From positions 1 to 64,000 of the forward strand of contig JAGVSM010003978.1 in assembly GCA_022494885.1 (NCBI GenBank): 64,000 nt of DNA, read 5' to 3'. The position numbers and the translations under genes are program-made. How positions within the stretch are numbered: position 1 is the stretch's first letter; the number at the start of each line of letters is the position of its first letter. The stretch is from Micrasema longulum. Taxonomy: Eukaryota; Arthropoda; Insecta; Trichoptera; Brachycentridae. This document shows positions 1,481 to 51,862 of this stretch, piece after piece. Below the pieces are notes generated by a model. It was given only the letters and a program-made list of their open reading frames with translations. It did not search any database and was not told the origin of the DNA.

Positions 1481-1831
1481 AAGTTTTTCTGGGTTATTAT
1501 GCCGTGTGTCGTTCGTACTCTCTACCGACGTTTCGGATCGCGTTACAGCGTCCATCATCAGGGTTGATGTTATTTGTGTATAAATATGTGTTACGTTAGG
1601 TACTTAGAATTTTTACCGTGTCGTAGTCGTTTTTGTGTGATGTTATGTATTTGGGACTTGTACCGTGTCGTAGTCGTTTAGATTAATGTGTACCATTATG
1701 TACTACACATATTCATACACAAATATTCATACACAAATAACATCAACCCTGATGATGGACGCTGTAACGCGATCCGAAACGTCGGTAGAGAGTACGAACG
1801 ACACACGGCATAATAACCCAGAAAAACTTAA
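1481..1831. repeat. Foldback element H1 (inverted arms of about 110 bp)
   Basis: Left arm about 1481-1591, right arm about 1718-1831, almost perfectly complementary. The 126-bp spacer contains ACCGTGTCGTAGTCGTTT twice (1615-1632 and 1662-1679). There is no transposase ORF. Each arm contains the hammerhead-like core described separately. Confidence 0.8.
1746..1787 (+). ncRNA. Hammerhead-ribozyme-like motif H1
   Basis: Box CTGATGA is at 1749-1755, followed by extra base T1756. Stem II is GGA-CGC/GCG-TCC (1757-1762 with 1769-1775, bulged A1772), then GAAA at 1776-1779. A self-complementary ACGT (1779-1782) gives a GUC triplet ending at 1783. GGT (1784-1786) pairs with ACC (1746-1748) as stem I. 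The stems were read by eye; activity is an inference. Confidence 0.5.
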
Positions 1832-1864
1832 TGTGCATCTTAACGGCCGTGAAAATCTAAGAAG

Positions 1865-2252
1865 TTTAAATATCACATAATACGAATACCGATAAAAATG
1901 TATTAAATGGATTTAGAATAATTAATTGTATTTTCGTAATCAATATGGATATTGTGGAGAAATGTCTTGATACGTAAATGTAAAAAAATACATTTAATAA
2001 AAATACATTGCTAGAATAACGCGACGTGTTCGGCCTTGGTTGTTGTGACGTTAAGATTGGTGGTAATGTTCGAAACAAATTTCAATGGCCAGGAACAAGT
2101 AAACATAAATCGTGACGTATTAGGGGCGTGGCCAATGGAATGGCAGTTTTGCGAGAATTAAAAATTTAAAAATATTTTTTTTTACTAAACAGTATTTCAT
2201 GGACTTTTATTAATTTAAAAATATTTTTTTAAAAAGTGATATTTCCCTATTC
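1865..2252 (+). mobile_element. MITE-Q copy 1
   Basis: Runs from AAATATCACATAATACGAAT to GTGATATTTCCCTAT. It shares its interior with 15396-15645 and, reversed, with 19170-19604, where the ends TAGGGAAATATCAC / GTGATATTTCCCTA are clear. It looks like a non-autonomous DNA element. Confidence 0.6.
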
Positions 2253-2289
2253 TCAGTGTTAGAAGTGAGTCTATTTTGTGTTACAAAAT

Positions 2290-2476
2290 AATCTTAATAA
2301 TCTTGACGTCACAATTATCAATGCCATACATGTCGCAGTTTTCTAGGAACATATTTTTTTTTAATTTACTTTTTAAAGTTACGTATGAAAACATTTCTCC
2401 GCAATATCCATATTGATTTTGAAAATTCAATTATTAAAAAAAAAACATCTGTATTCGTAGTATATGATATTCCTCT
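2290..2476 (-). mobile_element. MITE-Q fragment, opposite orientation
   Basis: Contains AATATCCATATTGATTTTGA and ATTCGTAGTATATGATATTC, matching the 3' part of the reversed copy at 19170-19604. It lies directly after copy 1, so the two form a head-to-head pair. Confidence 0.5.
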
Positions 2477-2499
2477 GTTAGGAACTTTTACATCATGAG

Positions 2500-2984
2500 G
2501 CCGACTAATCTACACTCCATGTAAAATGGGCCTAACACTCTTAATTATCTAAAATATTCGCCAATTTACGAAGCGGCTAAACGTGGCTTGCCAAATTGTA
2601 AAATGCCAAGTGTTGACGATATGGCTTATCGCCGATTTGCCGTTTTGTAATTTAGCTAGTCAATATCGTGAGCATACAATGTTAACTGGCCAAGTCAAAA
2701 TTCTTGTTTGCTGGCAAATTTAGATTGAAGTTTTTGCATATACACAAACTCTTAGTTTTGCGATTTATTTTGACTTGGTCAATATTTCCTGTATGGTCAT
2801 AAACTGACACCAGGCCAGACGGTCAATAAGGAATAGTATTTAGGCGTATTGAAGCATTTGAAAGAATATTTGTCTAAAAATGCCAGATATATGGAAAGGA
2901 TAACTCTTAGTTTCAATCACGATTTCGCCGTCGCGCACACCTCTTCTAGTACGCGATTATTTGGCCAAAAACAGCCTAAAAGTC
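2500..2984. other. Unassigned intergenic DNA
   Basis: No ORF of note. CCAAGT, TTGACTTGG and related short blocks recur, but no boundary or family is recognised. Confidence 0.4.
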
Positions 2985-3205
2985 GTTACTCGTGCACAGT
3001 ATTAACCTGATTTGGCTCCGTGTGACTTTTTCCTGTTGCCTAAATTCACTTCGCGGAAAGCAAAAAGAAAATTCGCGGAGGGAGTTGAAAGCCATTCCGA
3101 AATCGGCATACGGGAATTATCATAAAGATTGGAAAACACGTTGGCGTGTGTGTATGCCTCTAATGGTGATTACCTCTGGTGATTGGTGGTTTTTGTGAGG
3201 AATTC
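2985..3205 (+). pseudogene. mariner-like transposase, C-terminal remnant
   Basis: The conserved mariner C-terminal order is seen across two frames: PDLAPCDFFLLPKF-like at about 3000-3045, then ENSRRELKAIPKSAYG and DWKTRWRVC at 3060-3165, then a broken copy of the usual NGDYFEG end. Frameshifts and stops make it dead. The N-terminal part and catalytic residues are not present nearby. Confidence 0.75.
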
Positions 3206-3689
3206 AGTATTATGACGAGAAGTAATTTCGCCTGAGTTCGATAGGGATCTTTTTAGGATCTGTGTTAGGATTTTGCCAGTAGTGTCTTGATAATTTGATG
3301 TTTCTCTGTATTTGGTATATATACGTATTGTTTTTCTTGTTGCTTGAGTGCATGTTGTACAGGGCAAATTATTCTAATGTTTCCTATATGTATTTGGGTT
3401 TTGTGTCGTTGTTTGGTTTGTTTGTATTACTACGTTCTTCTTCCTTTCCGAGGCGGGATCTGGAGCGTGCGGCCGCGGTCTCAATTTGAAACTAACACTG
3501 TATTCCTTCTCTGTCATACTGAGAAATTAGAAAAAGGTGATTGTGCTGACCACGTGTATTTGATTGATCACAAATTGACAATACTGCAGTGAAGGGGTAC
3601 AATGAAAGCTTTTAAAGTTTCTTTGTTTTGTTATTTCCGCGGTTTGATTGTAAAGAAATACTACATTTTCGCTCAATTAATTTTAAAAA

Positions 3690-3880
3690 TATTGATATTG
3701 ATATGCGAAACTGAAGAAAGACTCAAGTCTTCATGAACAGTTTCGGGAAAGGGGTGGATGCTTTCATTGTAATGGTGATTACTTTGAAGGGGATACAATA
3801 CATATTGATGAATAATTCAGCTAAAGTTGTTTTTTTTTTACAAATTCTGGGTCATATTTGAACATACGGTATATAATTCA
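3690..3880 (+). pseudogene. mariner-like transposase, extreme C-terminal remnant
   Basis: One frame reads NGDYFEGDTIHIDE and then a stop, the usual end of mariner transposases. It is followed by a diverged stretch resembling the 3' non-coding part of the copy at 19812-20125 (ACAAATTCTG). It is a separate decayed insertion from the one at 2985. Confidence 0.6.
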
Positions 3881-3922
3881 CCACTGTAATTGGGCCTCCT
3901 GCCCTGTTGTGTAGTGTAAAAC
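3868..3922 (+). mobile_element. SINE-T tail fragment
   Basis: TAATTCACCACTGTAATTGG and the following GCCTCC...GTAGTGTAAAA match the non-tRNA tail of the SINE at 52350-52517. The tRNA-like head is missing. Confidence 0.45.
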
Positions 3923-4379
3923 AAATAACAATTAGTTGACTTGGTAATTTTTTTAATAAGAGATTCCATCCAGTACTAAAACCTGGTCAAAAAATCTGAA
4001 AATCGTAAAATTTGACTTGGCTACTTCTGTATGCTCGCGATATGTATTCCGGCTAAAATAAAAATTCGGCTTCGACGTTTATAAGTAGGTATTTCTGTGT
4101 CTAGAATTTTATTTAAATTTTCACCGAAATTCCTAATTGACAGGCTAATAGGTAACACCACGTTGTATTGGCTCATAAAATAGTCAAAAGCGTCAGTCTT
4201 GTTAATACTGACAGCGGCAAATTCGAATGTTGTTATTTTTATTAATTTACCTATTTACACGAATACATTTTGAATATTATATTTTTGTTTTGTGATGAGT
4301 GATCTTTACTGACTTCCGAACATGTTTTTGGCTAACGTGTGGGGCCTGGATATACCTTCACAACATCCATTTTCGGTGC

Positions 4380-4595
4380 ATTCGTGGAGTGGTACAGATA
4401 TCGTAAGTTAGTTCAAGGTTCTAGTAGTATAAGTTCACTCATTTCTATCATTCATCGAGCGGTAAGAATAGCGTAAGTTAGTTCAACTTTCTAGTAGTAT
4501 AAGTAGACTCATTTCTATCATTCATTGAGTGGTAAGAATAGCGTAAGTTAGTTTATGGTTCTGGTAGTAAAAGTAAACTCATATATATCATTCGT
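4380..4595. repeat. Minisatellite, three units of about 70 bp
   Basis: Three successive imperfect copies of a unit containing GCGTAAGTTAGTTC, CTAGTAGTATAAGT and ACTCATTTCTATCATTC. The third copy is the most diverged. Confidence 0.85.
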
Positions 4596-4881
4596 TACAT
4601 ACGCACGCACACATTTAATAATGTACCATAATTTTACATGTATGAATATTATTTAGTAACTTCTGTCTGTCTTTCAACCTTATCTTTATTTTATAATTTA
4701 ATTATTGTTGACTGTATGTTTCTATAAAATAAATAAATTATAAATATTGGTTTCAGCTATAAGCCCGCCTAAATGTATGTGTTTTTTGTACTTGGAAGTT
4801 TTAAATAGGTATTTAAAAATACTATTAAAGCTGATTAAAAAGACTATTAAAGACCCGAATGGACTGTAAATCCTTTTATAT

Positions 4882-5258
4882 ACAGGGTGTTCATTAAACC
4901 CTGTCACATCTGAAACCACGATAATCAGTATGAGCAAGAAGACATATTGGCACATTAAAATATTTTTTTAGAACGAATAAAATTTACAAAAATAAAATAT
5001 TAAATAAAACAATTGGTTGCTTACTTCTGCAGGGGAGAAACGAGGAGGGGGGAGTCTGATACACTGTCAACCGCGCGGCCACGCTCCCCTCGCTTTTCCC
5101 CTGCAGAAGTCAGCAACCATTTGTTTTTTTTTTAAATATTTTATTTAAAAAAAAATTCTTCTTTCTAAATATTTTTTAAAAATATTCTAGTATGTCTTCT
5201 TGCCCATACTGATCATCGTGGTTTCGGATATTATAGGGTTTAAAGAACCCCTGTATAC
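4882..5258. mobile_element. MITE-T copy 1
   Basis: Terminal inverted repeats of about 60 bp (CAGGGTGTTCATTAAACCCT at the left, its complement with a small deletion at the right), flanked by TATA. An inner inverted pair CTTACTTCTGCAGGGGAG / CCCCTGCAGAAGT encloses a G+C-rich centre. There is no ORF. Four more copies lie in this window. Confidence 0.8.
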
Positions 5259-5719
5259 ACTCTTGATCGTGTAGCCACCCTCTTATTTTGCTCTCCTTAC
5301 GTAAAATAGTTTTCACGGAAGAAAAGTAAAACAACGTAATCGACTTAAATCTTAACATTGGCGCCCGTCTTGATCTGATAGTAAAATAAAAAATCTTATC
5401 TCATTAATAAAAAAAATAAAATATTCTTTAATCTTCAAAACAGCGGATATTTCTTTAAATCAATCAATCAATAGGGTCACGCGTTGTCCAGGGTTGGCAT
5501 AAATCATAATTTTCAATATCTTTAATTTTAAAATCAATGATTTGATTAATTTTTATCACTCTTTTTTTCATATTTTTGTAATGATTTATGATTAGATAAA
5601 AATTCCAGATTAGTTTTTTTTTTAATCCGTCATCTCTACATTATTGATTGAATAATAACTTGATACACGATTAAATATACAATTATTTTTTTATTTAGTA
5701 CTTCCCAAGAATACATTAT

Positions 5720-5840
5720 ATGTATTTTTATTTATTTTATTTATTTATTTTATTTATTTTATTTATTTTATTTTATTTATTTTATTTATTTTATTTATTT
5801 TACTTATTTATTTTATTTATTATTTTTTTATATGTATTTT
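5720..5840. repeat. TTTAT-type microsatellite
   Basis: Long imperfect run of TTTTATTTAT units with few interruptions. The flanks, 5260-5720 and 5840-5930, are A+T-rich and unassigned. Confidence 0.85.
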
Positions 5841-5939
5841 TTTCATTTTATTTATTATGGTTTACAAACAATAAATAATACATACGACAGAAAGTGGGGG
5901 GACATCGAAGCATTGGGATATCGAAGCATCGGGACTCTA

Positions 5940-6120
5940 CGTAATAATTATTTTATTTTATTTAATGCATATACGGCTTAAGCCAATTACAACAGTTACA
6001 TGAATAAACATAAATACAAGAAACTGAACAAAAAGAACATAAAACTATCTAGCAAAGACAAACAAGGGCAAAACAATAATGGTATACAATATATTCATAA
6101 AAACGAAAGACATAGTACTT
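5940..6120 (-). mobile_element. LINE 3'-end-like fragment
   Basis: Starts with T-rich TTTTATTTTATTTAATGC and contains AACATAAAACTATC and ACAATAATGGTATACAATAT. The reverse complement occurs at 47489-47610. The T-rich left border followed by 3'-untranslated-like sequence fits a retrotransposon 3' end on the minus strand. Confidence 0.45.
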
Positions 6121-6127
6121 TGAGCTT

Positions 6128-6371
6128 AAGCTAGGGTTTCCTAGGACAGCGGTGCCCGTATCTTAACGGCCGTAGTGAACGGTGATGCGGTATACAGCAG
6201 TTGTAACGGGGACTAGAGAGTGGTTTCCTAGGAAAACGGTGTTATCAACACCATTTAACACCGTTTTCCTAGAAAATCATTTTCTAGTCACTGTTACGAC
6301 GGCTGTCCACCGCATCACCGTTCACTACGGCCGTTAAGATACGGGCACCGCTGTCCTAGGAAACCCTAGCT
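6128..6371. mobile_element. Near-perfect hairpin MITE, 244 bp
   Basis: The outermost 63 bases on each side are exactly complementary (left AAGCTAGGGTTTCCTAGGAC, right its complement). The inner part contains a further palindrome around GGAAAACGGTGT / ACACCGTTTTCC. No ORF. The low divergence of the arms suggests a young insertion or gene conversion between arms. Confidence 0.85.
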
Positions 6372-6482
6372 TTAACCATGCCAATCGAACTTCATCCTAC
6401 ACTGTTTAGTCGCGAAGAGATCTATGTAAAGCCGAAAGATCTATCACAAAGAATTGTTATCGCGGAAGAATTGTTATCTATT

Positions 6483-6535
6483 GTAATCGCGGCCCTGGGC
6501 CCCGATTACAATGGGAAGCTTAGGCCGTCGTACAT
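6483..6535. mobile_element. MITE-P end fragment
   Basis: GGGCCCCGATTACAATGGGA at 6498-6517, preceded by an opposing TTGTAATCGCGGCCCTGG. These are two MITE-P termini back to back with little between them. Confidence 0.55.
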
Positions 6536-6614
6536 AAATTGTAATTAAAGCAAAAACTGTTTGAAAAAAAAATTGACGCATTTAATAATGAACTTATCTT
6601 TTTTTTATTTTTTA

Positions 6615-7165: not shown

Positions 7166-7179
7166 CTCAAAACTTACAG

Positions 7180-7400: not shown

Positions 7401-7574
7401 ATAACTTACTCGACTTTAGCGCCCTTCAGGTGATTCTCACAAAAATGGCAATATATAAATATTATCCTAAATAAATCAAATAAAATAAATATTATCAAAA
7501 CTATAAAAATGAAACTAGTTTGACTTGCATAGGCTTGATTTGTACCTTTTACAATATATTAATATTAAGTTTTT

Positions 7575-7807
7575 GTCGGCCTCGTGGTGTAATGGTCAGC
7601 GCATTTGCCTACCATGCAAGAGAAGGGTTCGATTCCCGACATAGTTAATATGAAATATAATTTAAAAGGGTGTTTTCACACTAGAATATTTCGTAGTTCC
7701 GAAGCGTAAGACTGATCACCTTACCTTCATGTAACAAAATTGATCAAGATTCGCTGCTATTGGTGTACCAATGAAGTGCCCTATGCACCATTAGGTGCGG
7801 AAAGGGA
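7575..7807 (+). mobile_element. SINE-G, near full length
   Basis: The head resembles tRNA-Gly(GCC): GTCGGCCTCG start, A-box-like TGGTGTAATGG, TTGCCTACCATGCAAG and a perfect B box GGTTCGATTCC, closing with CCGAC. The tail runs through TTTTCACACTAGAATATTTC to GCACCATTAGGTGCGGAAAG. It is not a functional tRNA: the T and anticodon arms are imperfect and it continues into the SINE tail. Confidence 0.85.
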
Positions 7808-8839: not shown

Positions 8840-9618
8840 TGTAAAGCTAATTCACACTTGTGATATCATAATTTTACTTACGAATTTCCATCGGGGATTT
8901 TACAATTAATCTTCGCGCCTTTAAAATAAAACATTAAAAATGACGGACAATTCAATAGAAATAGAAATATTTTTTTTAATTAATACATGCATATAGTCTG
9001 GGCATTTACAGGGCTTGTGACCTGGCATTAGCTTTTTTTTTATTGAATTTTTTTTACATGAGTATTCTTTTGAACAATTGTTTCATTCTCGCCAAACTGC
9101 AAAATCAGTTTTTTCCAGGGATTTCTCTCTTTAAATATTTTGGTAACCCAATATAATAATGTTTTCATAAACATATAAAAAATCTTTCTTTCGTTTTGTA
9201 ACTTAATTAGTAAATATCTATCTATTTATTTATTTATTTAAACACTTGATGTATGTATTTAAAAAAAATAATAATTTGAAGATACATATGTTTGAGGCAA
9301 TTTCTTCCTACCTACCCAAAATTTATTCCTACCTATCAAACTATCGCATATATCAATATTACTTTGACTCAATCGAAATCGTATTTCGCTCTTGTTCTCA
9401 GCACATACGAACGAACACTATGAGTCGCCTACTAACTACACTGTGTTTTGAGAGTAAAGCTGCCTTTATGTGTCTTCAGCGCGTTTAGTATAAAGAACTA
9501 AACAAATCAAGTTGTCTCACTTACATTGTTTATTGTTTCAGAATTTACTTTGTGGAAAACCATTTTTTGATTTGTTAAATATAAACACTGTAATTTTACC
9601 ACATGCTAGTTTAACACA
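8840..9618. other. Unassigned DNA
   Basis: A+T-rich. It includes CATTTACAGGGCTTGTGACC near 9003, a diverged piece of FB-A, and TTTATTTATTTA runs near 9220. No gene is supported. Confidence 0.4.
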
Positions 9619-9735
9619 GTAATACTCCTAGTTTCAGGTATTCTGAATTACATATCATCAGGTGTAAATATAAATGATGTTTTTATTTACACCTGATGAT
9701 GGGTAATTCAGAATACCTGAAATTAGTAGTGTTAT
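9619..9735. repeat. Foldback element H2
   Basis: Arms of about 51 bp (9619-9669 and 9683-9735) are separated by about 14 bases. CAGGTATTCTGAATTA on the left pairs with TAATTCAGAATACCTG on the right. It carries the hammerhead-like core in both arms, better preserved on the + strand. Confidence 0.75.
9689..9732 (+). ncRNA. Hammerhead-ribozyme-like motif H2
   Basis: Box CTGATGA at 9693-9699, extra T9700. Stem II is GGGT/ACCT extended by ATT/AAT around loop CAG (bulged A), and GAAA is at 9719-9722. A one- or two-pair helix III gives GUA ending at 9728, and GTGT (9729-9732) pairs with ACAC (9689-9692). Fold read by eye; activity unproven. Confidence 0.45.
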
Positions 9736-9959
9736 TAGATCGAGACTTTACTGACAGGATGCTGTCATTTAAACAAGTTCCGAGATGATCGCATTTAAAG
9801 CTTTTTTATTCTTTCAACGCATTATTTTTTCTACATTTTTTTTTTTATCTTCGAAAGAGTAATCTTGATTCTAGGTATAGCATAAAATTGAAATCAACAT
9901 CTTGCACCTGTAAAAAAATATTTTAAATATATAAAGACTGTTGACTTAATTCATTTTGT

Positions 9960-11089: not shown

Positions 11090-11605
11090 CATCATTAAAT
11101 ATAAACAATATTTTGAGTTTGTCCAAATTTTTGTAGACAAGGACTGGATTCAACTCCCCGGGGAGCTGTTTATATTAACATATTACAACAGAGATGAAGA
11201 AAATTTAAGAGAAGATAATATAGAAGTCCAGGCATCTACAGGGCTTATGACCCGTCAATGGCTGGTTTAAGTGGCCACTTTACACACTGTGTAACATTCA
11301 CCATTCTGCCTATATTTGAACATCTATATTCCTTCGATTCTTTCATCTGTTGATGTTTGTGAAGTTAAAGAGCTAAAACCTTTATTTATGCTGGTGAAAT
11401 TCATTTTATTGAATTATTTCACCTACATACTAGGCAACGCCTGAAAATGTGTAAAGTGTAAAATGAAATGTAAAAAAATGTGTAAAGTGGCTACTTAAAC
11501 TAGCCATTGACAGGTCATAAGCCCTGTAGATGTATAGACTTCTTTATTACCTTCTCTTAAATGTTCTTCATCTCTGTTGTAATATGTTAATCATTAAATA
11601 TAGTT
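11090..11605. repeat. FB-A foldback, near complete, just inside the intron
   Basis: The left half runs from GAGTTTGTCCAAATTTTTGT through ATTACAACAGAGATGAAGAA, CTACAGGGCTTATGACC and AGTGGCCACTTTACACACTG to AGGCAACGCCTGAAAA. The right half from about 11476 returns on the opposite strand and ends CTCTGTTGTAATATGTTAA. No ORF. Confidence 0.75.
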
Positions 11606-11979: not shown

Positions 11980-12145
11980 GTGGCATAGAGGATAGATCGC
12001 CACATCACTCGTACATCTTCTCATGCACGCGCGCCGATTATTCCGACTCCTTACATGCCAATTTTCAAGTATTTGCTGGATTTGATCATGCCATGTCTTT
12101 TTCGGTCTTCCTCTGTTTCTGCATCCATCAACATTCGCAGTGTAA
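11980..12145 (-). pseudogene. LINE-W reverse-transcriptase tail fragment
   Basis: On the minus strand the frame follows the DGCRNRGRPRKTWHDQI-like tail, with numerous changes; compare 45064-45465. It is interrupted where the inverted-repeat element starts at 12143. Confidence 0.65.
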
Positions 12146-13088
12146 ATATTTTTAGCTTATGCACTGAATCACAGTAACGAGCAAATGTTTAAAAAGGCTA
12201 TAACAATTGATAGTTAAGCTAGAAGCAAAATGGATTGTGTCATTCGGCAAAACTAATTTTATAATACCAGGGCCCCGATTACAATGGCATTTTCCATTTA
12301 TCTTCAATTTTATCTACAAAGTAAAATTAAGTTTTCTGTATGAAAAGCAGAATATGCATACACTTTTTTCTTCTTAATATGTTTAATTAAAGGTTACTGG
12401 TGAAGATACTTTGAATGTTCATGCAAATATATTCATTTTCGTACACAAATATCGGTTTTTATTTATGGACAGCTGAAGATAACTAATAAAATAAATTCAA
12501 AGCAAACAAGCTTCTTCGTCAAGGTTTACGTAACTAATGAATTCATTCCCACTTTTTTTTATGTTTACTAAATACTACACGTGGAGCCAATAAATCAAGT
12601 ATTTTTTTCCCTAAAAGGGTGGTAATTTGAGATTAATATTTTAGAAGCTAGACAGGAGTGGACTAAAAGAAATATTGTTTTGTGAATAGATAACACTTTT
12701 AACTTCCCATTGTATTCAAGGCCCTGCTACATAAACGTATATTTTTTGTCTAAATTTGTTGCAACAGAGAGGGAAAACATTTTTGAGAAGAGAATATAGA
12801 AGTCTAGGCATTTACAGGGCTTATGACCTATCATTGGCTGGTTTAAGAGGTCCCTTTTCAAAAATGTTTTCCCTCTCTGTTGCAACAAACTTAGACAAAA
12901 AATATACGTTTATGTAGCAGGGCCTTAAGTACAATGGGAAGTTAACAAATCCCATTGCTATCGGGTATTATAAAATTAGTTTTGCCGAATGACACAATCC
13001 ATTTTGCTTCTAGCTTAACTATCAATTGTTATAGCCTTTTTAAACATTTGCTCGTTACTGTGATTCAGTGCATAAGTTAAAAATGTTC
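12143..13088. mobile_element. Long inverted-repeat element with nested MITEs
   Basis: Outer arms of about 128 bp (12143-12271 and 12962-13088) are nearly perfect complements, e.g. TAGTTAAGCTAGAAGCAAAA against its complement. Inside lie MITE-P ends (12272 and 12705-12740, 12925-12960), part of the H5 foldback (12497-12600), and a second hairpin with 69-bp arms (12720-12788, 12858-12924) whose centre is an FB-A core. No transposase frame is present. Confidence 0.75.
12497..12600 (-). repeat. H5 foldback fragment
   Basis: Matches one arm of the element at 15705-16220, including AGCAAACAAGCTTCTTCGTC and AATACTACACGTGGA. The copy breaks off inside the hammerhead-like core: GAAA has become GAAT and the cleavage triplet is absent. 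Confidence 0.65.
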
Positions 13089-15645: not shown

Positions 15646-15704
15646 GCAACGAACCCTATTAATTTAAAATTATAAAATAACTTATATTTAAAATAGAATA
15701 AATA

Positions 15705-16220
15705 AAACAACTTTGTTTTTAACCACTAATATTTATTTTTCACCGACCGGTTTCAAAGCAAACAAGCTTCTTCGTCAAGGTTTACGTAACTAATGAATTG
15801 ATTCCTTTTTAAAATTTTATTTTTATATGTTTATCATGTTTACTAAATACTACACGTGGACCCAATAAATCAAGTCGTTTTTTTCCTTACACGGGTGGTA
15901 ATTTGATATCATTATTTTCGTAGTAAGACAGGAGAGGACTAAAAGAAATATTGTTTATTTGGTTATTAATTATTGTTTTTTTTATTATAAATCGCTTTTT
16001 TAAAATCTAAGATTTCTAAGTTACCCAATTTTAATATTTTATGATTGATTTATTGGGTCCACGTGTAGTATTTAGTAAAAATGATAAAAAAATAAATAAT
16101 AAAATTTAAAAAAGGAATCAATTCATTAGTCACGTAAACCTTGACGAAGAAGCTTGTTTGCTTTGAAACCGGTCGGTGAAAAATAAAAATTAGTGGTTAA
16201 AAACAATGTTGTTTTATTTA
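15705..16220. repeat. Foldback element H5
   Basis: Arms of about 180 bp (15705-15895 and 16044-16220) are nearly complementary, with about 150 bases between. Both contain CAAACAAGCTTCTTCGTCAA or its complement and TACTACACGTGGACCCAATA or its complement. No ORF. A truncated relative is at 12497-12600. Confidence 0.85.
16138..16177 (+). ncRNA. Hammerhead-ribozyme-like motif H5
   Basis: Box TTGACGA (C3 replaced by T) is at 16141-16147, extra A16148. Stem II is GAAGC/GCTTT (16149-16153 with 16160-16164, closing G.U) with loop TTGTTT, then GAAA at 16165-16168. Self-complementary ACCGGT is at 16168-16173 and the GUC triplet ends at 16174. GGT (16175-16177) pairs with ACC (16138-16140). A second copy is on the minus strand at 15741-15786. 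Confidence 0.45.
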
Positions 16221-17183
16221 TTTTATTATAATGAATAACCACAAAGTTAGTGCTTCAAATATAAATTATATAACTTATATTTACCTATGGAAGATAACTG
16301 TTAAGTTCCCTTTGTAATACGGGCCCTTAAATCTTTAGATATGTGTGCCAATCCACCCTGCTCGGTAAAATGAAGTTTTCTTAGTTAATTTTTTGTTAAA
16401 TTGGACCATTTTAGGTTTTTGGTTTTATTGGACCATTACTAAATCATGGATTAGCAAGAGACATGATTTATTTTATGGAATAAACCGATACGTGCTGTAT
16501 TGAAATAGTGCGCAGTAACAAAATAATAAATAAAACTGATAGGATTTATTATCATTAGCCGAAAATAACTGGATAGCTAGCTATCTATATATATATATAC
16601 ACCTAGGTGTATGTAATAAATATACCTTATCACGACCATACCGTACTACGTACGAAACGATAAAAAACGCTAATGGAAAATTGTACGTAAAGTAAATATT
16701 ATTCTACTTTATTTTATTGAAAAAAAAGATATGGTGTTTTTTGATGAATCGGATTCTTGATAATGATGTATAGGGAATCGAGTGCCCGTTTTAAGTATGC
16801 CTACGGGTGCCTGTCAGTATAACGAGAAATATGGTGCTATTCCCTACCGTACTGTCAATGTGTGAACTAGAGGTTGCAAATAAATACAGATCTATTTATT
16901 TATTTTTTTATATATTTTATGGACACATTTATGCATAGAAAATTATTATAACAAAATTAGAAAGATTCGATGGTTTATAGTAGACTTTGTGGGAGTGGAA
17001 GCGTTCATACAACTCTTGAATTTTAAAAGGCAGTGTATCAATTTACTATCTTCAAATTGAAATACCTATATAATACTAGGTATGTTCATTTGAATTGTGT
17101 GCCGTTGATTATATATCTGTATTCATTTTTTTTCTTTCTAACTTCTTCTAATTTTAAGATTCTTTTAATATAACTTATACGAC
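16221..17183. other. Unassigned intronic DNA
   Basis: A+T-rich. A T-rich block at 16880-16930 followed by ATGGACACATTTATGCAT resembles a minus-strand LINE 3' end. (TA)n near 16583. Confidence 0.4.
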
Positions 17184-22528: not shown

Positions 22529-22925
22529 AATGTTTGATAATGTCCAAATGCTTGCAGACTGGCTGGATTTCCTCCCTAGGGAGTTGTTCATATTTAAATT
22601 TATTTCACCTGAGAGGAAAAATTTTTTGAGAGGGAATATGGAAGTCTAGGCATTTACAGGGCTTATGACCTGTCATTGGCTGGTTTAAGTGACCACTTTA
22701 CACACAGTGATAAAGGTTTCAGCTCTTTTACTTCACAAAAGTCAGCAGATGGAAGAGTTGAGAAAATGTGGATGTTCAAACATAGGCAGAATGGTGAATG
22801 TTACACAGTGTGTAAAGTGGCCACTTAAACCAGCCAATGACAGGTCATAAGCCCTGTAAATGTCTAGACTTCCATATTCCCTTCTCAAAAATGTTTTCCC
22901 TCTCTGTTGAAATAAATCAAAAATA
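22529..22925. repeat. FB-A foldback, compact copy
   Basis: Left end AATGCTTGCAGACTGGCT..., then GGGAGTTGTTC, GCATTTACAGGGCTTATGAC. The central TCAGCTCTTTTACTTCAC is followed by inverted GTGTGTAAAGTGGCCACTTA and TGTTTTCCCTCTCTGTTG. The arms pair over about 100 bases. Confidence 0.75.
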
Positions 22926-29160: not shown

Positions 29161-29330
29161 ACAATTCACCAGTCTTGAAGATGCCTACTTGGGTGAAAGC
29201 GCTCGTTTTATTGATAACTTTATTTATAACTTTATTTATAATTACATTAAAATCATTAACTATGGAGTTTTATCAAGAAAAATCAACAAAAAACATCAAA
29301 ATATTAATGATGTAATAACTTTTATTTCCG
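29161..29330 (+). repeat. Degenerate H3 core and element end
   Basis: TTCACCAGTCTTGAAGATGC and GGGTGAAAGCGCT repeat the H3 core with changes. ATTAATGATGTAATAACTTT near 29300 matches the end of the RT tail at 42700, so this is part of the same element as 42310-42806. Confidence 0.5.
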
Positions 29331-29353
29331 TATAAGTTATTAATTTAAAAAAA

Positions 29354-29640
29354 TACTTGGTACACTTCCACTTATTTATTTTGACCAATAAGCGCTTTCA
29401 CCCTCTAATGGGCATCTTCAGACTGGTGAATATTATACAGTGTAAGGGTAATTTATACAAAACTAAATATTATCTTAAGTGTAGGTACATTTATTTAGTT
29501 TTATATAAATTACCCTTACACTGTATAATATTCACCAGTCTGAAGATGCCCATTAGAGGGTGAAAGCGCTAATTGGTCAAAATAAATAAGTGGAAGTGTA
29601 CCAAGCATTTTTAAAATTAATAACTTATATGTAAATATAA
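29354..29640. repeat. Foldback element H3
   Basis: Arms of about 120 bp (29354-29477 and 29504-29625) are almost perfectly complementary, e.g. TGGTACACTTCCACTTATTT against its complement. Each arm holds the hammerhead-like core. Flanking TAACTTATA / TATAAGTTA blocks extend the inverted symmetry. No ORF. Confidence 0.85.
29534..29577 (+). ncRNA. Hammerhead-ribozyme-like motif H3, best preserved
   Basis: Stem I is ACCAGT (29534-29539) with ATTGGT (29572-29577), six pairs with one G.U. Box CTGAAGA is at 29540-29546, extra T29547. Stem II is GCCC/GGGT with loop ATTAGA (29548-29561), then GAAA at 29562-29565. Self-complementary AGCGCT is at 29565-29570 and the CUA triplet ends at 29571. All core positions match the hammerhead consensus apart from the extra T. 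A mirror copy is on the minus strand at about 29380-29430. Confidence 0.55.
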
Positions 29641-29965
29641 GTTATTAAAAAAAAAAATAATAATAATACCGGTGAAGTGCTAACGATTGAGCGGTTCAGC
29701 GTACACATCATATTTAAGAAATGGCCCGCTTACGGCTTACTACATGCATACCTCTCTTGGTTATTTTAAAGATAGGAACAGATCAATAATCGCAGGTAGG
29801 AAAAATGGACAAGAGATTAAGGTAGTTTAAAGTAAACGGTATACAGAAACGCAAACATAATACGTACACGTATAAAAGATGGCACGTATTTTTATTATGA
29901 TGTTCACATTGTTCGCGCGGTGACGTATTTTAGTAAACTTTTTTTGATTCAAGATAAATATTTGC
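29641..29965. other. Unassigned intronic DNA
   Basis: No coding or repeat boundary recognised. Confidence 0.35.
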
Positions 29966-30054: not shown

Positions 30055-30460
30055 AAACGCGAGATATATCACGTCTTGTATCCTATGTCGACAAGTGTGA
30101 CATCACAGCTCCCACAAGAGTTAAAAAAATAAAGGTGTTTCAATACGCGAAATATTAACAAAATTTGAAGAAAAAAAAACGGTCAAGACTTCAATTGTTC
30201 TTAGGTACACATTCTTATTTATTCTTAGAGGTGGAGGTCAGTGCGATGCAAGCTTCTGGCGTCACTGCGACCTGTGAAGATCTATTGTGACGCCCTCCAA
30301 GCCCAGGGTACGTTTTCTGATGGGAACAAAAAAATATCTTCGATGTTATCTACGAAGTAACATTAAGTTTTCTGTATGAAAAATATAATATATTTACGTG
30401 TAAATGTGTATATTTATGTTTTTAGTTTTAAAAAAATAATATTATTTTTGATTTATTTCA
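30055..30460 (-). repeat. Dispersed segment R2, inverted copy of 22926-23345
   Basis: Carries GACATCACAGCTCCCAC, AGTGCGATGCAAGCTTCTG and CGCCCTCCAAGCCCAGGGTA in the reverse order of the first copy, and continues into the FB-A arm. The copies are very similar over their whole length. Confidence 0.8.
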
Positions 30461-31085
30461 ACAGAGAGGGAAAACATTTTTGAGAAGGGAATATGGAAGT
30501 CTAGGCATCTACAGGGCTTATGACCTGTCAATGTCTGGTTTAAGTGGCCACTTTACACACTGTGTAACATTCACCATTCTGCCTATATTTGGACATCTAT
30601 ATTCCTTAAATTCTTTCATCTGTTGATGTTTGTGAAGTTGAATCCAGTCCTTGTCTACAAAAATTTGGACAAACTCAAAATATTGTTTTAAATTACCTGG
30701 TTCATGAAGAAGTATAGAAATTGAAAAAATAATATTTTCAGGCGTTGCCTAGGTATGTAGGTGAAATAATTCAATTTGATGAATCTCACCCGCATAAATA
30801 AAGGTTTCAGCTCTTTAACTTCACAAACATCAACAGATGAAAGAATTGAAGGAATATAGATGTTCAAATATAGGCAGAATGGTGAATGTTACACAGTGTG
30901 TAAAGTGGCCACTTAAACCAGCCATTGACAGGTCATATGCCCTGTAGATGCCTGGACTTCTATATTACCTTCTCTTAAATGTTCTTCATCTCTGTTGTAA
31001 TATGTTAATATAAACAGCTCCCCAGGGAGTTGAATCCCAGTCCTTGTCTACAAAAATTTGGACAAACTCAAAATATTGTTGATAA
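30459..31085. repeat. FB-A foldback, longest copy
   Basis: Left half from AACAGAGAGGGAAAACATTT through TCCTTGTCTACAAAAATTTG. The central AGGCGTTGCCTAGGTATGTA flips into the opposite orientation and ends with CAGTCCTTGTCTACAAAAAT and AACTCAAAATATTGTTGAT. This copy gives the fullest view of the family. Confidence 0.8.
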
Positions 31086-36024: not shown

Positions 36025-36271
36025 CCTTTCCGCACCTAATGGTGCATAGGGTACTGCATTGGTACACCAATCACTGCGTATCTTGATCATTTTTGTTACA
36101 TGAAGGTAAGAAGATCAATCTTATGCTTCAGGTACCAGTCCAGGGACTATGGAATATTCAGGTGTGAAAACACACTTTTAAGTCATTTTTCATATCAACC
36201 ACGTCGGGAATCGAACTCGAGACCTCTTGCATGGTAGGCAAACGCACTGACCATTACACCGCGAGGCCGAC
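36025..36271 (-). mobile_element. SINE-G, full length
   Basis: Complete on the minus strand from the GTCGGCCTCGCGGTGTAATG head (36271) to CACCATTAGGTGCGGAAAGG. TTGCCTACCATGCAAGAGGT keeps the resemblance to the tRNA-Gly(GCC) anticodon region. The best-preserved copy here. Confidence 0.9.
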
Positions 36272-38905: not shown

Positions 38906-40381
38906 TATTAGAGTTTTTTCATTAACAACTTTCCTTTTCAATCGATAGGACATTTGCTTGACTACTCGCCCAAATTTAATCTAAATTTTTAGTAACATAA
39001 TCTATCGGCCAATTAGTAATTATATTTTAGCTAAGTATATAAAACTTTTAACCATATTTTTTTGTCAGTAATACCGTAGAAAATGTTTGTTGTCATCTAA
39101 AGTTTTAGCTTTTTTTATGGGGCGATTTTGAAAGAACGGCGTTTTAAAATTACAAAATCTTATCATTTCCTTACTTTATACAGCCTCATCAATACGATAT
39201 TCTTTCATTATTTGTCCTGAAGATGGGCAACTCGAACCAAATAGACGAAAAATATTCAATACCGTAAACGAAGCAATTAAAAATTATTACCCTGAACGTA
39301 GTCACTTGATTATTGCGATCATTTCATTATATTTTCATATTCACCTCCGTAGTGTAATGAACCCTAAATTCCGTTTCGTGTTCGCCATTGGGCCATTTTA
39401 CATTTATCGTCCAAATCCACAACGGTAAAAATAGGGTGGATTGTTGATTATATTATTTATTGCCTGTGTCCGGGCGGATGTAAAACTTTGCAATCATGAT
39501 TTTATTATCTTTTATTGGCTATACTAAATTTAATACGTGATTTAATCTAAAGAAAATTAATACAATGTTTTCTTTGCCTGCAGGCATATAATATTATGTA
39601 TCCGATGACCCTGAATATTAAAACTACAAAAAACAAATAAAATGACTTGCACTTTTTCCGAGAAATAGTAATATTTGCATTTTTTATTATTATTTAATTC
39701 TTCCGGGCCTAAGGGGGGGTATCTAGGGTCTCCCATGTAGTATATTTTTCAATAACTCTTTTCTTATTCATCAATTGATTTAATTGTTTGCATAATCCTA
39801 TTCCGAAATGTCAGAATGTATCAAAATTATTCAAATATTTTTTTGCCGAATTCTTTCAATAATAATGTAGGTACATTTGGATGCCTAAGTCCATTTTTGT
39901 AGTTCTGAGATATTTCAAGTTTAATTGTTTATTTAGTTCCTGAAATGTTAAATTACAGAATTTCGGAAAATTGAAAATACGTATTGTAATGTTTTTCTTT
40001 TTCTCTATTTTCAGATAAAAAAATACAAAAATGTTACATGTTTATTTACAAAATTATTGCTTGTCAAAATGTGGACGTATGCCTAAGGTCAGGACTTAGG
40101 GAATTTTTAAAAGTATTTAAAGGACTGAGGGATTTTTTCTCAGGAAAATAACTTAGATATTTTTAGGATTCAGGGATTTTTTGAAATTGAAATAATATTT
40201 TTTAATCATTTTTCAAATACATAAGTCGATATAAGTATTCCTTATTGAAAAATTAATTAGGTTAATAAATAGTTCACAAAATGGTTTACACGGCAGTGTT
40301 GCCAACTTAAAACCGATAAAATTGGACTTAGACATTTTTTTAAAATTAGACATCCTTTTGTCTTTGCTTTCCCCCGTTAAA
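38906..40381. other. Unassigned intronic DNA
   Basis: No gene. CCTGAAGATGGGCAACTCGA at 39217 resembles the hammerhead-like box but lacks GAAA. Confidence 0.35.
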
Positions 40382-45910: not shown

Positions 45911-46039
45911 TATAAATAATTTTTCTAAGGCATTCGTGGTATTTTTAGTTTATTTAAGTAATGTAAATTTAAAATGCTTGTATTTCTTTTTAAAAACCAA
46001 AATTAAAGTTTTTTCTTTAACGACCTTCTTGTGTAATTT

Positions 46040-46620: not shown

Positions 46621-48439
46621 TTCTAGTTTGATTTATTATCAAAAAATCGTTCGAAATAATTTTACTTAAATACTTATCTTTATTATGAGTACCAATGTAC
46701 TTTGGTTTAATATAAATTTTAAGAGGCATAGTCTGCCTGTCGAAAACTACTCATTATTTAAGTCATTTAATTTTTTAATCATATTTTATCAGGAATACCT
46801 TAGAAAATTATTGTGTTTATCTAATAAATCGCTAATCAAATTTAAATGGAACACAAATCTAAAACCCCGAAATTTCGTTTTATTGCAAAACTGAATTTTA
46901 AATCAGTCACCTTTTTCTAAAAGAAAAAGACTCCCATGGATTGGTGATTTATGACCCAAATCGCACAACAGCCCTTTTGGCATTTTGCGTTTTGGTGGCT
47001 AACTTCAGAGCAAAACTGTCATCTGTTTTATGTTTCTGTGTCTCCATAATTAGATAGATACAGCTTTAAAAAACGCATCTAATAATATTAAAAACAAATA
47101 TAAAAGGAAGATAATAAAAAAAAAACATTAACTCATTTTAAAAACTTTGATTGGCTCGACTGAAAAAAGTCAAATTTCAATTTGTGGCAAATTTAGTTAA
47201 TTTTTAATGGCGATATTTTTTATGCTATAAGTGATGTCCCATCTCTGTTGCAATCAATTTCTTTTCATGTTCCCAAGCATGTCACCTGGAGTCAAAATCT
47301 GCTTTTTATTAAATCTTCTAAGGGCAACTATTTTTTTTATGGCCAAATGTCCAGAATGTGTAGATTAGTCAATTTGACACATAGCTTGGAATTATTTGGG
47401 ATGAATCTTCCGGCTTTTCGTAGATCTCTTTGCCACTAAATCAGTGTGGGATGAAAAAGGATTAACATGGTTTAGCTCGAAGTCTTGTATGTCTTTCGTT
47501 TTTATGAATATATTGTATACCATTATTGTTTTGCCCTTGTTTGTCTTTGCTACATAGTTTTATGTTCTTTTTGTTCAGCTTCTTGTATTTATGTTTTTTT
47601 CATGTAACTGTTGAATGAGGAATTCCAGCCCAACCCGGAATTAAATTTAAAAAATGTTTTCGTGTACACGTGAATATTTAAAAATTTTGGAGTAGGATGA
47701 AATATCTCAAAAACGCACGCAAAAATAAATAAAAAATGTTAAAAATAGTATTCATTTTAAAATCGTAAATAATGACGTCACTCCTTATATCTACGTGTAG
47801 TATTTCCGGTTTCCGCTTTAAAGCCCCCGCACCTTGTAAGGAACGTTTTTACCATAGAAAAAAATAAATTAATTTGTATAATTTGACATTTCAACCAGAG
47901 ATTATGTCAACTTTCTAGGTTTTTCTAAATCGAAACGTTCGTAAAAACAACCATAACATAAAAATGAGCAAATTACGATCAACTAAATGAAGTAATCAAA
48001 GCAATATTCCATAGATTTTTTTCAGGTCAGTGAAAGTAAGAACGCCAACCGTTTCATGATGTCACTACTGAAAAGTGACACACTGATTACAGTCATTTTG
48101 CGCGGTATTTGATAAATGTAACTTTAAAAAATCATATCTTTGTAAATAACGCACAAAAAAATTTAATATATATATTTGTTTGCTTATTAAAATAGTACGC
48201 TAATAGAAAAAAATACATTAGAAAACAGTAGAATTCCTCATTGCCTTAGGCCGTATATATAATAAATTAAAATAAAATAACATTATTTAGTCAAATGTTT
48301 GACTACAAAGATAATGCTTTAAATATTAATAATAGTAATTTAACGTCATTATTACATAACACGACACGATATTTTTCTAGTAAAAATCTGACGAGCTTAT
48401 TGATCCTCGAAGCCTCCAAGGCGATTTACATAGTAGATG
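46621..48439. other. Unassigned intronic DNA
   Basis: Contains the reverse complement of 5940-6120 at 47489-47610 (ATACCATTATTGTTTTGCCC). No gene is supported. Short open frames at 46685 and 47248 lack any recognisable family. Confidence 0.4.
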
Positions 48440-48710
48440 TTCAGTTTGCAGTTTTAGCTGACGATGCGTCGTAATTGTTCCAAATTGCTCAGCAAGTCGG
48501 TTTGTCTTGCCACAATAGCACTTCCTGTGAAATTAAAATATATTCAAGTCCAAGGGCGACATTGAGCGGTGAATGGAATCCGTGGCTTGTAATGAAATTT
48601 CGTTGGCGGTGTCCTTTTGAGGCGCGTTCGTCAACCAAACATTTCTCGCGTCAGTCATTTTCATGTGATTACATCTTTCTTTTCACATTTATAGTTTTTA
48701 AATAGCGCGT
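48440..48710. other. Moderately G+C-rich island, unknown
   Basis: Includes GACGATGCGTCGTAATTG, GGGCGACATTGAGCGGTGAA and GAGGCGCGTTCGTC. A 76-codon + strand open frame covers it (48475-48705) but has no recognisable motif or splice borders. Confidence 0.25.
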
Positions 48711-48842
48711 TCTTGAATAATCGGTCATATTGTACACTTTTCGTAAGTACAAAAGGTTTATGAATGTTGATAAATCGAAAGTGATGGTTTTTGAAAGGGA
48801 TGAAAATATAACCAAACGTTAGATCAGTGTGAACGGAGATAT

Positions 48843-49118
48843 TCTGCAATGTTTGGGTATGTCCAAATGCTTGCAGACTGGCTGGATTTCCTCCCTAGGG
48901 AGTTATTCATATTTGAATTTATGGCAACAGAGAGAGAAAATATTTTTGAGAAGGGAATATGGAAGTCTATGCGTTTACATGGCTTATGACCTGTCATTGG
49001 CTGGTTTAAGTGGCCACTTTACACACTGTGTAACATTCACCATTCTGCCTATGTTTGAACATCCACATTTCCTCAACTCTTCCATCCGTTGACTTTTGTG
49101 AAGTAAAAGAGCTGGCAA
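48843..49118 (+). repeat. FB-A half copy
   Basis: CCAAATGCTTGCAGACTGGC, then GGGAGTTATTC, TTTACATGGCTTATGACCTG and AGTGGCCACTTTACACACTG. It is very close to 22529-22760 and stops at the central axis. Confidence 0.75.
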
Positions 49119-50155
49119 GCCTAAAAACACATTTAACCTTTCCCTTACTGTCCTAAAAACACCCTCGAATTACGGTGCTGTGTAGTCACTACACATTCAT
49201 AAAATAAGAGATTTAAAAAGGGAAAAATGAAATATTTATAGGGAATGGCTTTATTTAACCATAATTTAATTCAAAGATGATAATATTTCAAATCTAACTG
49301 CTGAAAACATGAAAAAACCATTGGGTATCGCTAACGACTCGGGCTAAACGTGCACCCGCGCTAACTTCCCGAGAGCTACTAAGTAGCTATATAGTATTGG
49401 ACTACGTGACTGACGTGTATACTTTTGACGATTTTTTAAATTTTTCCCGATTTCCGATAAAATGTTTTTTTTGTACCCAATAAGTACTTTTTATTTAATA
49501 ACAAATTATTTCAGTCGATACGTAAATGTGTAATGTAGGAATACTGAAAATCTCAACTCAATATAGATTTTATTTATAAAGATATTATAGTTATTAGACG
49601 CAACGTGTACTAGCTACACATCAGCGCACTGGGAGGGAGGGTTAATATAATGAAACTGGGCTCGAAGCCTTTGTCCCGACCACAGACAATCTCTTTGGAG
49701 TTTTAACTTTTCCCTTTTTTACCATCACTTGTGCCTTGTGCCTACCGTGTTGTCAGTTCTCAGTCGCTACATTACATAACAATATACATATCAATATCCG
49801 ACTGATCAATAAGTATTTTATTATTCGTCTGACCTTATGCCGACTCATTCAGTTAACTCCGATCGATAAATTCAATTATAAATTATTATTGAGGCGTATT
49901 ATACGTAGTAGTAATGTAAAAACAAAAAATAAATGCCCACGGACAAACAAAAATTAATTTAGCGTACCGAGGTATGAAAAATTACGAAATCAATTTAGTT
50001 TTTGGTCGTTATTTATTTATTTATTGACGCCCTAAGCCAATTTGTACAGTTTACATACATGTTGTTTGAACAAAAAAGAATTTTTAAATATTACAGGTTC
50101 TAGGAGTTTTAAACATTTGAAGCGGTTTAAAGGAAAAACGCGTCTGTTCATGATA
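49119..50155. other. Unassigned intronic DNA
   Basis: A stretch near 50010-50065 (TTTATTTATTTATTGACGCC) has the T-rich LINE-3' border. No gene otherwise. Confidence 0.35.
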
Positions 50156-50832
50156 TCTTTATATATATAATTCTTCTGTACGTGTGATGTCACTGAACTT
50201 CTTCTAAACGGCTTAACCGATTTATGTGCAGTTTTCAGCGAAATGTAAATCTTTGCACTGTGCGTGTTCGTAGATATTATTTTTTAAAATTAAATCTGTG
50301 AAAAAAAAGTTAGAATCCTTATTTCATCTACCAGGGATGCATTCGACGAGAATGCACATTAAAAAAATGGAAGGATGTTGTTTTTTTGTGTTTCAAAAAA
50401 GATTGTTTTTGAATTTTTACAAACAACGTTCGATTTTTATGGATGCCAATCAGATTTTTTCCTTCCATTCCTTATAATTTCTTCCATTGATTTATTTTTG
50501 GTAATACTAAAATAATACTAACTGACAAAAAAAAAACATTTTTGAAAATCGCATTCATGAATAAAGTGAGCCCCTGTTGGTAAGAAGAGCCGAGTTTGAC
50601 ATTTTTAAAAAGAATTCTATATTTGAAAATCAATTATTTTATGTTTTAGAATTCAACCATAAACAAGTACCTAGGTACTTACTTAAATTCAATATTAGAA
50701 TATAAATATTTTTTAGTTTTGGAATTCAATCATAAACAAGTACCTAGATACCTAATTATCAATGAAAAGTCTTTTTCCAAGCTAATAGCAGGCAAGCCAA
50801 CGTTCGAGCAGGGCGTCTGTCGGGTCCGCTAG
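50156..50832 (+). mobile_element. Non-autonomous Helitron
   Basis: Starts TCTTTATATATATAATTCTT after A50155 and ends GTCGGGTCCGCTAG before T50833. These are the 5'-TC and CTRR-3' termini, with insertion between A and T expected of Helitrons. CTTCTAAACGGCTTAACCGA near the 5' end and the hairpin GGGC/GTCC just before CTAG match common insect Helitron termini. The 677-bp body has no Rep/helicase frame. It contains an internal repeated block (50643-50680 and 50717-50755, CATAAACAAGTACCTAG). Confidence 0.85.
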
Positions 50833-51317
50833 TAAAATATACATTTTATTATATTTTTTATATGTAAAATTATCGATAGGATATATTTTATTGTGATGAA
50901 AAATTTTGAACAAATTTTTTTAAAAATAAAAGTTGTATGTTCTAACACAGATGTTAAAAATAAATTGGGATTTACTATCAATATAAATCCCCAAATTACA
51001 AAATGTTAGCTGCCGTTTGTAATAAACAAAACTTGTCGGTAATTCTGGCAAAGAAAGTGTCTATTGCGGAGAACATTTTTGCAATATAGTTAGCAACATA
51101 TTGATCTTAATTCGCAACAATACGTTAAGCATCTTAAAGCTGCGTTGCGTCGTTTTTAATCTAGATGCGTGGTTTTTGGTTAACATAAATTTGTTAGTTA
51201 AAACTTATCAAACTATTTTTTTCTAAGTAAAAATATAACAATTTTTTTAGTATGTCTAAATCATTTAAGTTTGTAAGTGAAAATTCTTGATGGAAGTGCA
51301 TTGTAATTTATTATAGA
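50833..51317. other. Unassigned A+T-rich DNA
   Basis: No coding or repeat structure recognised. Confidence 0.35.
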
Positions 51318-51862
51318 AATAAAAGACGAGTGATACTTTAACCCACAAATTTGGAATATCTAGTGACCGGTTTCATCGCTTTCGCGACATCTTCGAGACT
51401 GCATCTTTATTAAGGAGTTCAGTGTATTAATAAAAAACAGAGGTAAGGATAGAGAATTCAAAATTATATGAGAGTAAATTAAATAAAGTTATTTTTATCT
51501 TAAGGATCATCATCAAAATTTTTTCGGGTTAACTAATGAGTTGATGTGATGCTATTTTAATGAGTTTAAGTATTTTATTTTTAGTGTCCCATCCTTCGTG
51601 AGTGTGATTTTTTTTCAATTATGATTTCTGAAAAACAAAGGGTAAAAAGTCATTAGTAAAAATATAATTTAATAATTTATTTCACTATAAAAATATAATC
51701 ATACAATTTTGAATTCTCTATCCTTACCTCTGTTTTGTATAAACACATTGAACTCATTAATGAAGACACCAGTCTCGAAGATGTCGCGAAAGCTATGAAA
51801 CCGGTCACTGGATATTCCAAATTTGTGGATTAAAGTATCACTCGTCTTTTATTTTAATAATA
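51318..51862. repeat. Foldback element H4
   Basis: Arms of about 155 bp (51318-51475 and 51697-51862) with about 220 bases between. AAATTTGGAATATCTAGTGA and its partner show arm complementarity. Each arm holds a hammerhead-like core. It ends in AAAAGACGAGTGATACTTTA / complement. Confidence 0.85.
51769..51811 (+). ncRNA. Hammerhead-ribozyme-like motif H4
   Basis: Stem I is CCAGT (51769-51773) with ACTGG (51807-51811), five perfect pairs. The box is CTCGAAGA (one extra C), extra T51782. Stem II is GTCGC-GAAA-GCTAT (perfect GCGAT in the left-arm copy, with a GAAA tetraloop), then GAAA at 51797-51800. ACCGGT is at 51800-51805 and the GUC triplet ends at 51806. The minus-strand copy spans about 51359-51405. 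Confidence 0.5.

Follow-up and report, generated by a model that had tools for sequence, protein, structure and literature searches.

Predicted hammerhead ribozymes with an extra core base at probable Penelope-like element ends in Micrasema longulum, and the head-to-head pairs that carry them

What are the five foldback elements that share a hammerhead-like core in one stretch of the genome of Micrasema longulum (Trichoptera, Brachycentridae), and why does that core carry one base too many? The stretch, hereafter the window, comprises positions 1 to 64,000 of the forward strand of contig JAGVSM010003978.1 and belongs to a 584-Mb assembly (GCA_022494885.1). An earlier inspection of its letters, the sequence-only reading, took the five for unrelated foldback elements and for a group of mobile elements that use a variant hammerhead; they are numbered 1 to 5 from the left, and their genomic families bear the same numbers. 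We conclude, with considerable confidence, that the motifs are predicted hammerheads, most of them probably located at the ends of Penelope-like retroelements (PLEs), that the extra base likely belongs to the start codon in families with an attached open reading frame (ORF), and that the foldback shape is likely the footprint of a double insertion. The ribozyme is thus of a known kind in a known kind of element; its insertion is explained in the ORF families, and the pairs carry an integration signature that was not expected.

The hammerhead-like core and its pairing

Readout of the sequence located all five motifs with their parts in the order described, including the extra base after the box (T, T, A, T and T in motifs 1 to 5). 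The 10.1-11.1 pair of stem II is G.U in families 2-5 and G-C in family 1, which fits the four of five reported. A CTGANGA-type box was recovered in families 1, 2 and 4 and not in the other two: element 3 has UUGACGA, with U at the C3 position or, alternatively, a bulged stem, and element 5 has CUCGAAGA, with a second extra base within the box. The core CUGANGA / GAAA / UH is letter-perfect, save for the base after A9, in families 1, 2 and 4 and in two families introduced below (ple76 and ple63), and departs from consensus in family 3 (UUGACGA or UUGACAA) and family 5. The extra base itself is present in all seven families compared. Helix III of element 2, also described as self-complementary, is palindromic in the genomic family (ACUAGU) and mutated in the window copy (AUUAGU).

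A motif scan that permitted either no extra base or one gave nine matches in the window, every one of them with one. A random-sequence control favoured the motifs, as 20 first-order Markov sequences yielded two matches (mean 0.1), a comparison to be read guardedly because the scan was built after the five motifs were known. Eight of the nine matches lie within inverted-repeat arms, namely both arms of elements 1, 3 and 4 and one arm each of elements 2 and 5. The motif in the right arm of element 5, one of the original five, was missed because one stem II pair is broken; the motif is present in both arms of this element, one arm having this single broken pair, and the left-arm motif of element 2 is degenerate. 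Self-comparison placed all five motifs in inverted-repeat arms; the element 2 repeat is absent from the best 25 of 63 inverted pairs listed and was seen in a separate comparison.

The Rfam scan of the window, a check suggested by the sequence-only reading, gave no hammerhead among 43 matches at E≤10 and therefore misses these motifs. A Twister-P5 line (E=1.8) and microRNA lines were attributed to hairpin background. When a covariance model was built from the three ORF families, family 1 was recovered strongly (left arm E=2.9e-18, family 1 being part of the model), whereas families 2 and 3 reached no better than E 0.49-1.1 and families 4 and 5 were not recovered, so that the kinship of the last two with family 1 is not proven by the model. 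A further match to this model at 39210-39250 (E=0.026) was dropped because it is without the GAAA core.

Covariation was counted in an eight-row alignment with loops removed and one motif per family (families 1-5, ple76, and ple63 in two versions). Standard pairs occupy 96.9% of its 64 stem cells, compared with 69.1% after shuffling, and in six of the eight pairs of stems I and II both partners vary, which bears out the compensatory pairing claimed from the window. Sliding the partner strand by 1-3 columns lowered pairing to at most 47.7%. The family 2 row is the window copy, and the family 5 row is a genomic form like that of locus L063, misaligned at two stem I pairs; whole-motif MAFFT alignments misplaced the 3′ half and were excluded from counting. 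The four ORF-family rows alone are 94.4% paired (76.8% shuffled). In two-strand folding, families 4 and 5 have the designed double hammerhead as their minimum free energy (MFE) dimer.

These results support the prediction, made from sequence, that the five motifs are self-cutting hammerhead ribozymes. Several observations count against it. The three both-side changes in the four ORF-family rows were equalled in 202 of 500 shuffles, the other measures being better. The double hammerhead is the MFE dimer in only two of the seven families folded (4 and 5), and the MFE monomer contains both stems only in ple76, 4 and 5. Family 5 has its second extra base in the box. The extra base of family 3 is A rather than U, giving AAG and no AUG, and its rows, including L016-L023, have A8 in 9 of 13 and G8 in 4 of 13, with U at position 3; many copies may therefore be inactive. 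As a separate observation on family 3, a U3-A8 combination replacing C3-G8 would preserve the core pair.

Carrier elements and the extra base

A longer genomic copy of family 1 (L010) contains a 632-residue frame that matches RVT_1 (35.4 bits) and GIY-YIG (22.7 bits), both above the Pfam cut-offs; the N-terminal part of another copy, L011, matched no Pfam family. Because RVT_1 and GIY-YIG in one ORF are the mark of PLEs, family 1 is a PLE. A search of the same genome with the PLE protein found at least 79 places in several families, and the ORF families ple76 and ple63 came to light in this way. Many animals have homologues of the protein, that of Anolis carolinensis being 52% identical. Further GIY-YIG places (G000:C86, C2333, C403, C5023 and others) include several opposite-strand pairs and possibly represent another PLE group.

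Families 3-5 are short units with 1177-1995 first-look candidates each in the genome. Two sharp classes of 3′ end were found in families 1, ple76, ple63, 3, 4 and 5, corresponding to a pseudo-long terminal repeat (pLTR) with an optional tail; in families 3-5 the longer class extends about 13-14 codons past an ATG (MNNHKVSASNINF, MEFHQELSINNFNE and MNFHQEFSLTNLN, copies varying). The two classes give families 3-5 the pLTR-plus-tail layout of Penelope (PMC3846280). Element 1 is a PLE end, and elements 3-5 are likely to be PLE ends too. Telling against this, no reverse transcriptase (RT) or endonuclease ORF was found attached to families 2-5 (family 4 copies were translated and the others read). 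The elements are not unrelated in kind, as had been supposed, for elements 3-5 share the build of element 1. What survives of the sequence-only reading is that these are mobile elements whose hammerhead has a very short self-complementary helix III; the separate foldback group does not, since family 1 is a PLE and families 3-5 likely are. In family 2, 19 aligned rows are near-palindromes with a common centre, and most listed places match both strands; its genomic form, in which helix III is palindromic, reads CTGATGA-T-...-GAAACTAGTT-GTGT.

In families 1, ple76 and ple63, A9-U-G10.1 forms an AUG in frame with the PLE ORF. Translation from it gave 740 (L035), 732 (L036) and 447 residues (L047 and L056) in family 1, 821 in ple63 (L059) and 317 in ple76 (L051, stopped there); most other rows translated are 3′ pLTR ends or broken copies. 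The N-termini of the three families (MDAVTRSETSVES, MDTAMCSETSAIQ and MAPAMVAETSDQI, respectively), compared ungapped over their first 18 residues, have only M1 and E8-T9-S10 in common in their usual forms. These conserved residues correspond to A9-U-G10.1 and G12-C17 of the ribozyme, and the core is doubly read, as G12-A13-A14-A15.1-C-G-U16.1-C17 in RNA and as Glu-Thr-Ser in protein. M-x6-E-T-S recurs at the same spacing in six of the 16 homologues compared, P0007 (Anolis) and P0012 (Henosepilachna, a ladybird) among them. These 16, picked out of 45 rows by visual inspection, have an N-terminus that extends to the LYG region; 123 proteins were examined, and one non-PLE serpin row was excluded.

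The extra base of the ORF families is the middle letter of an in-frame ATG, likely the start codon of the gene to judge from these frames and N-termini, and the insertion after A9 appears to be old and shared. What had looked simply odd thus probably has a use in three families, and an extra base is kept in families 3-5 without that use. There the motif lies upstream of the presumed ATG, so that a start codon does not explain the extra base, and in families 4 and 5 the frame from A9-U-G ends after five codons. It also speaks against the start-codon reading that 10 of the 16 homologues are without M-x6-E-T-S, and that L011, a full-ORF copy of family 1, reads E-M-S, by which helix III is altered.

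Minimal type I hammerheads of PLEs have reportedly been described by Cervera & De la Pena in 2014 and by Lunse, Weinberg & Breaker in 2017. Such motifs are in print (PMC6155905, PMC7761336) and are stated to occur in all available PLE sequences (PMC6155905); one or two extra nucleotides beside the hammerhead box have also been published (PMC10085705). The motifs studied here resemble the minimal PLE hammerheads in their type I order, a self-complementary helix III of a few bases, location in the pLTR and expected dimeric action. Family 3 differs in the U3 with A8 of most of its rows, and the base after A9 is present here in all seven families. The newt satellite hammerhead likewise has a very weak helix III and is efficient as a dimer (PMC7229834, PMC6155905), but lies in tandem satellite repeats and not in paired PLE ends. 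In PAc, the Poseidon element from Anolis carolinensis, the ORF begins at stem II, the ribozyme cut lies 26 bp downstream and the tail is optional (PMC11167929); the main-text section of that paper available to us mentions neither an extra base nor inverted element pairs.

Head-to-head pairs with unlike ends

Comparison of 3′ ends in 31 non-redundant head-to-head pairs from six families showed one tailed and one tail-less end in 30. All 17 pairs of a later set also had unlike ends, bringing the combined count to 47 of 48. If the two ends were independent, about half of the pairs would be unlike. Overlapping loci of a single insertion were counted once, five pairs in which a locus edge truncates one end (L011, L043, L054, L057, L058) were left out, and two family 3 rows that the script had labelled 'through' (L016 and L022) were reassigned by hand to the tailed class. 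The later set comprises all further opposite-strand pairs in the hit lists except C991, C1185 and C1403, two of which are without a 3′ end in the list.

In the ORF families the tail ends at about +109 to +119 from the AUG and tail-less ends lie about 30-35 nt upstream (reference positions). When each insert was compared with itself, an offset was found at one outer end only (27-49 nt versus 0-8) in 25 of 25 usable cases, the outer ends being derived from the reference match; L005, L012 and L013 (other arms picked), L023, L024 and L069 (no arms) and L057 were left out. The arms of these 25 inserts, all properly picked, measure 31 to 713 nt and lie 95-2272 nt apart. Separately, CACGGY and RCCGTG flank the tail-less start site at constant spacing in L035, L051 and L059, with one compensatory change; this pairing is not seen as such in most MFE folds.

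Common flank strings of at least 9 nt occur in 41 of 48 pairs and of at least 11 nt in 39, compared with 39 and 3 of 2256 mismatched flank pairs; the strings measure 12-14 nt in 31 pairs, and no two left flanks are alike. The flank match of L026 is a simple repeat. Since common flank strings around a pair mark it as one insertion, and since elements 1, 3 and 5 of the window have such duplications, the foldback shape of these three is that of two head-to-head copies of one insertion.

Four observations do not fit easily. Seven of the 48 pairs are without a flank string of 9 nt. Element 4 of the window, the sole exception to the one-tail rule, has two tail-less ends and no clear flanking duplication. 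A search for an inverted partner in the stretches surrounding 30 single copies gave none that was convincing. Lastly, in the available part of the PAc study no reads were found at the cut site, and ribozyme mutants were without effect on insertion in vitro (PMC11167929).

A competing account of the pairs is self-priming (snap-back) of one cDNA or antisense template, which the authors of PMC3846280 propose for head-to-head copies with palindromic junctions and to which element 4, near-palindromic with two like ends, and the palindromic family 2 would conform. Snap-back would, however, put the same 3′ end on both arms, and with 47 of 48 pairs unlike we consider it an improbable source of the pairs. 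The view of the sequence-only reading, a distinct foldback or MITE-like (miniature inverted-repeat transposable element) class that carries a variant hammerhead, draws on the presence of all five motifs in inverted repeats and on the shared centre of the 19 family 2 rows, as for a unit that spreads as a foldback. It is unlikely given that family 1 is physically part of an element with RT and GIY-YIG, that families 3-5 have the pLTR/tail layout in common, and that arms of such varied length and spacing are unlike fixed terminal inverted repeats.

Retrozymes of the animal type, small non-autonomous elements amplified through hammerhead-cut circular RNA, would suit the shortness and high copy number of families 3-5. 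This identification is improbable: published retrozymes are repeats that have type I hammerheads and circular RNA (PMC7229834, PMC7761336), the loci compared for 3′ ends contain no direct tandem hammerheads of families 3-5, and helix III is minimal here. A chance resemblance, with the core a by-product of coding or reverse-transcription signals, could appeal to GAAACGUC, which encodes the conserved E-T-S, and to the lack of an Rfam hammerhead match. We hold it to be very improbable, because both strands of stems I and II have changed from one family to another and families 3-5 retain the motif without coding it.

Unlike ends together with common flanks are what would be expected if both cut strands prime reverse transcription and the RNA offers two places to begin, and do not fit snap-back copying; the simplest account is target-primed reverse transcription on two strands from two start sites. 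On this account the two target strands are likely nicked by the PLE protein, about 12-13 nt apart, and each of the two 3′ ends would prime a cDNA, one started at the tail site and the other about 30-45 nt upstream. The two 5′-truncated cDNAs would then be joined head to head. PAc offers a parallel, in that both target strands were cleaved and extended in vitro and reverse transcription starts 111-118 bp into the ORF, like the tail ends of the ORF families; no difference in start site between the strands was seen there (PMC11167929), whereas 47 of the 48 genomic pairs combine the two sites here. In Adineta vaga, Penelope shows inverted pLTRs, duplications and a tail on one pLTR; copies are few, the authors favour self-priming, and the available text mentions the hammerhead zero times (PMC3846280).

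Features of the window and implications for Penelope-like elements

The elements, motifs and flanking duplications of the window are collected in Table 1.

Table 1. Positions of paired elements, hammerhead-like motifs and flanking duplications in the window
Feature	Position	Strand	Details
Element 1, head-to-head pair of PLE family 1 3′ ends	1472..1869		left end tail-less, right tailed
12-nt flanking duplication AAATATCACATA, element 1	left copy 1463..1474, right copy 1868-1879		
Predicted hammerhead motif, element 1 left arm	1524..1564	-	A9-U-G at 1555-1553
Predicted hammerhead motif, element 1 right arm	1746..1786	+	box 1749-1755, A9-U-G = 1755-1757, C17 = 1783
Element 2, short near-palindrome, old family	9595..9760 (bounds approximate)		
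Hammerhead-like motif, element 2	9689..9732	+	helix III AUUAGU (family ACUAGU)
Element 3, head-to-head pair	15688..16272		left end tail-less, right tailed with MNNHKVSASNI.. frame in tail
14-nt flanking duplication ATAACTTATATTTA, element 3	left copy 15677..15690, right copy 16270-16283		
Hammerhead-like motif, element 3 left arm	15742..15781	-	UUGACGA
Hammerhead-like motif, element 3 right arm	16138..16177	+	C17 = 16174
Ninth scan match, weak, degenerate, family-4-like	29174..29204	+	box CTTGAAGA, weak stem I; outside the listed elements
Element 4, near-palindromic pair	29301..29647		22 nt between arms; both ends tail-less
Predicted hammerhead motif, element 4 left arm	29384..29427	-	
Predicted hammerhead motif, element 4 right arm	29534..29577	+	A17 = 29571; helix III AGCGCU
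Element 5, head-to-head pair	51264..51864		left end tailed (ATG near 51301 on -), right tail-less
13-nt flanking duplication AGTATGTCTAAAT, element 5	left copy 51249..51261, right copy 51870-51882		
Predicted hammerhead motif, element 5 left arm	51360..51402	-	box CUCGAAGA, stem II intact
Predicted hammerhead motif, element 5 right arm	51769..51811	+	C17 = 51806; one stem II pair broken

Further long inverted repeats, without a match in the hammerhead scan, lie at 6128-6372, 30454-31002, 12145-13087, 11174-11591 and 22611-22902 and are possibly other foldback or paired insertions. Two tRNA-like matches, at 36196-36268 (-; 34.8 bits, above the Rfam cut-off) and 7578-7647 (+; 28.1 bits, just below it), are perhaps tRNA-derived short repeats. 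The open frame at 54669-55136 (+) resembles part of a choline-phosphate cytidylyltransferase, and at 55460-57566 an AT microsatellite accompanies clustered, overlapping inverted repeats.

With the ribozyme finding a puzzling motif can be assigned to an established group, and in the ORF families its odd base has a straightforward reason. By its position the ribozyme would cleave after C17, within the open frame, so that the AUG and first codons would be cut off the message, and it would act best with two copies paired through the palindromic helix III. Cutting and translating would then exclude each other; that the start codon overlaps the catalytic core may explain why PLE ribozymes have no agreed role.

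The one-tail rule is the more useful result. The 2013 paper did not settle how inverted pLTRs arise and leaned towards self-priming (PMC3846280); 47 of 48 pairs with unlike ends, most of them with flanking duplications of 12-14 nt, make a two-strand, two-site model the better one, and a testable one. A near-absolute rule of this kind, with its extent and its use against self-priming, was not met in the available parts of PMC11167929, PMC3846280, PMC8969392 and PMC12910113, and we do not claim that this rule or the extra base is unreported.

We tentatively suggest, as a possibility somewhat short of probable, that PLE integration is a built-in two-strand reaction by an asymmetric complex, and that the overlap of core and AUG makes cleavage a switch that turns the RNA from message into transposition template. 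If so, each pair would hold one cDNA begun at the distal site, that of the tail, and one begun about 30-45 nt further upstream, and two subunits or two RNA sites would be distinguishable during integration. In that case the integration reaction would have left legible footprints across animal genomes in the form of foldback PLE fragments.

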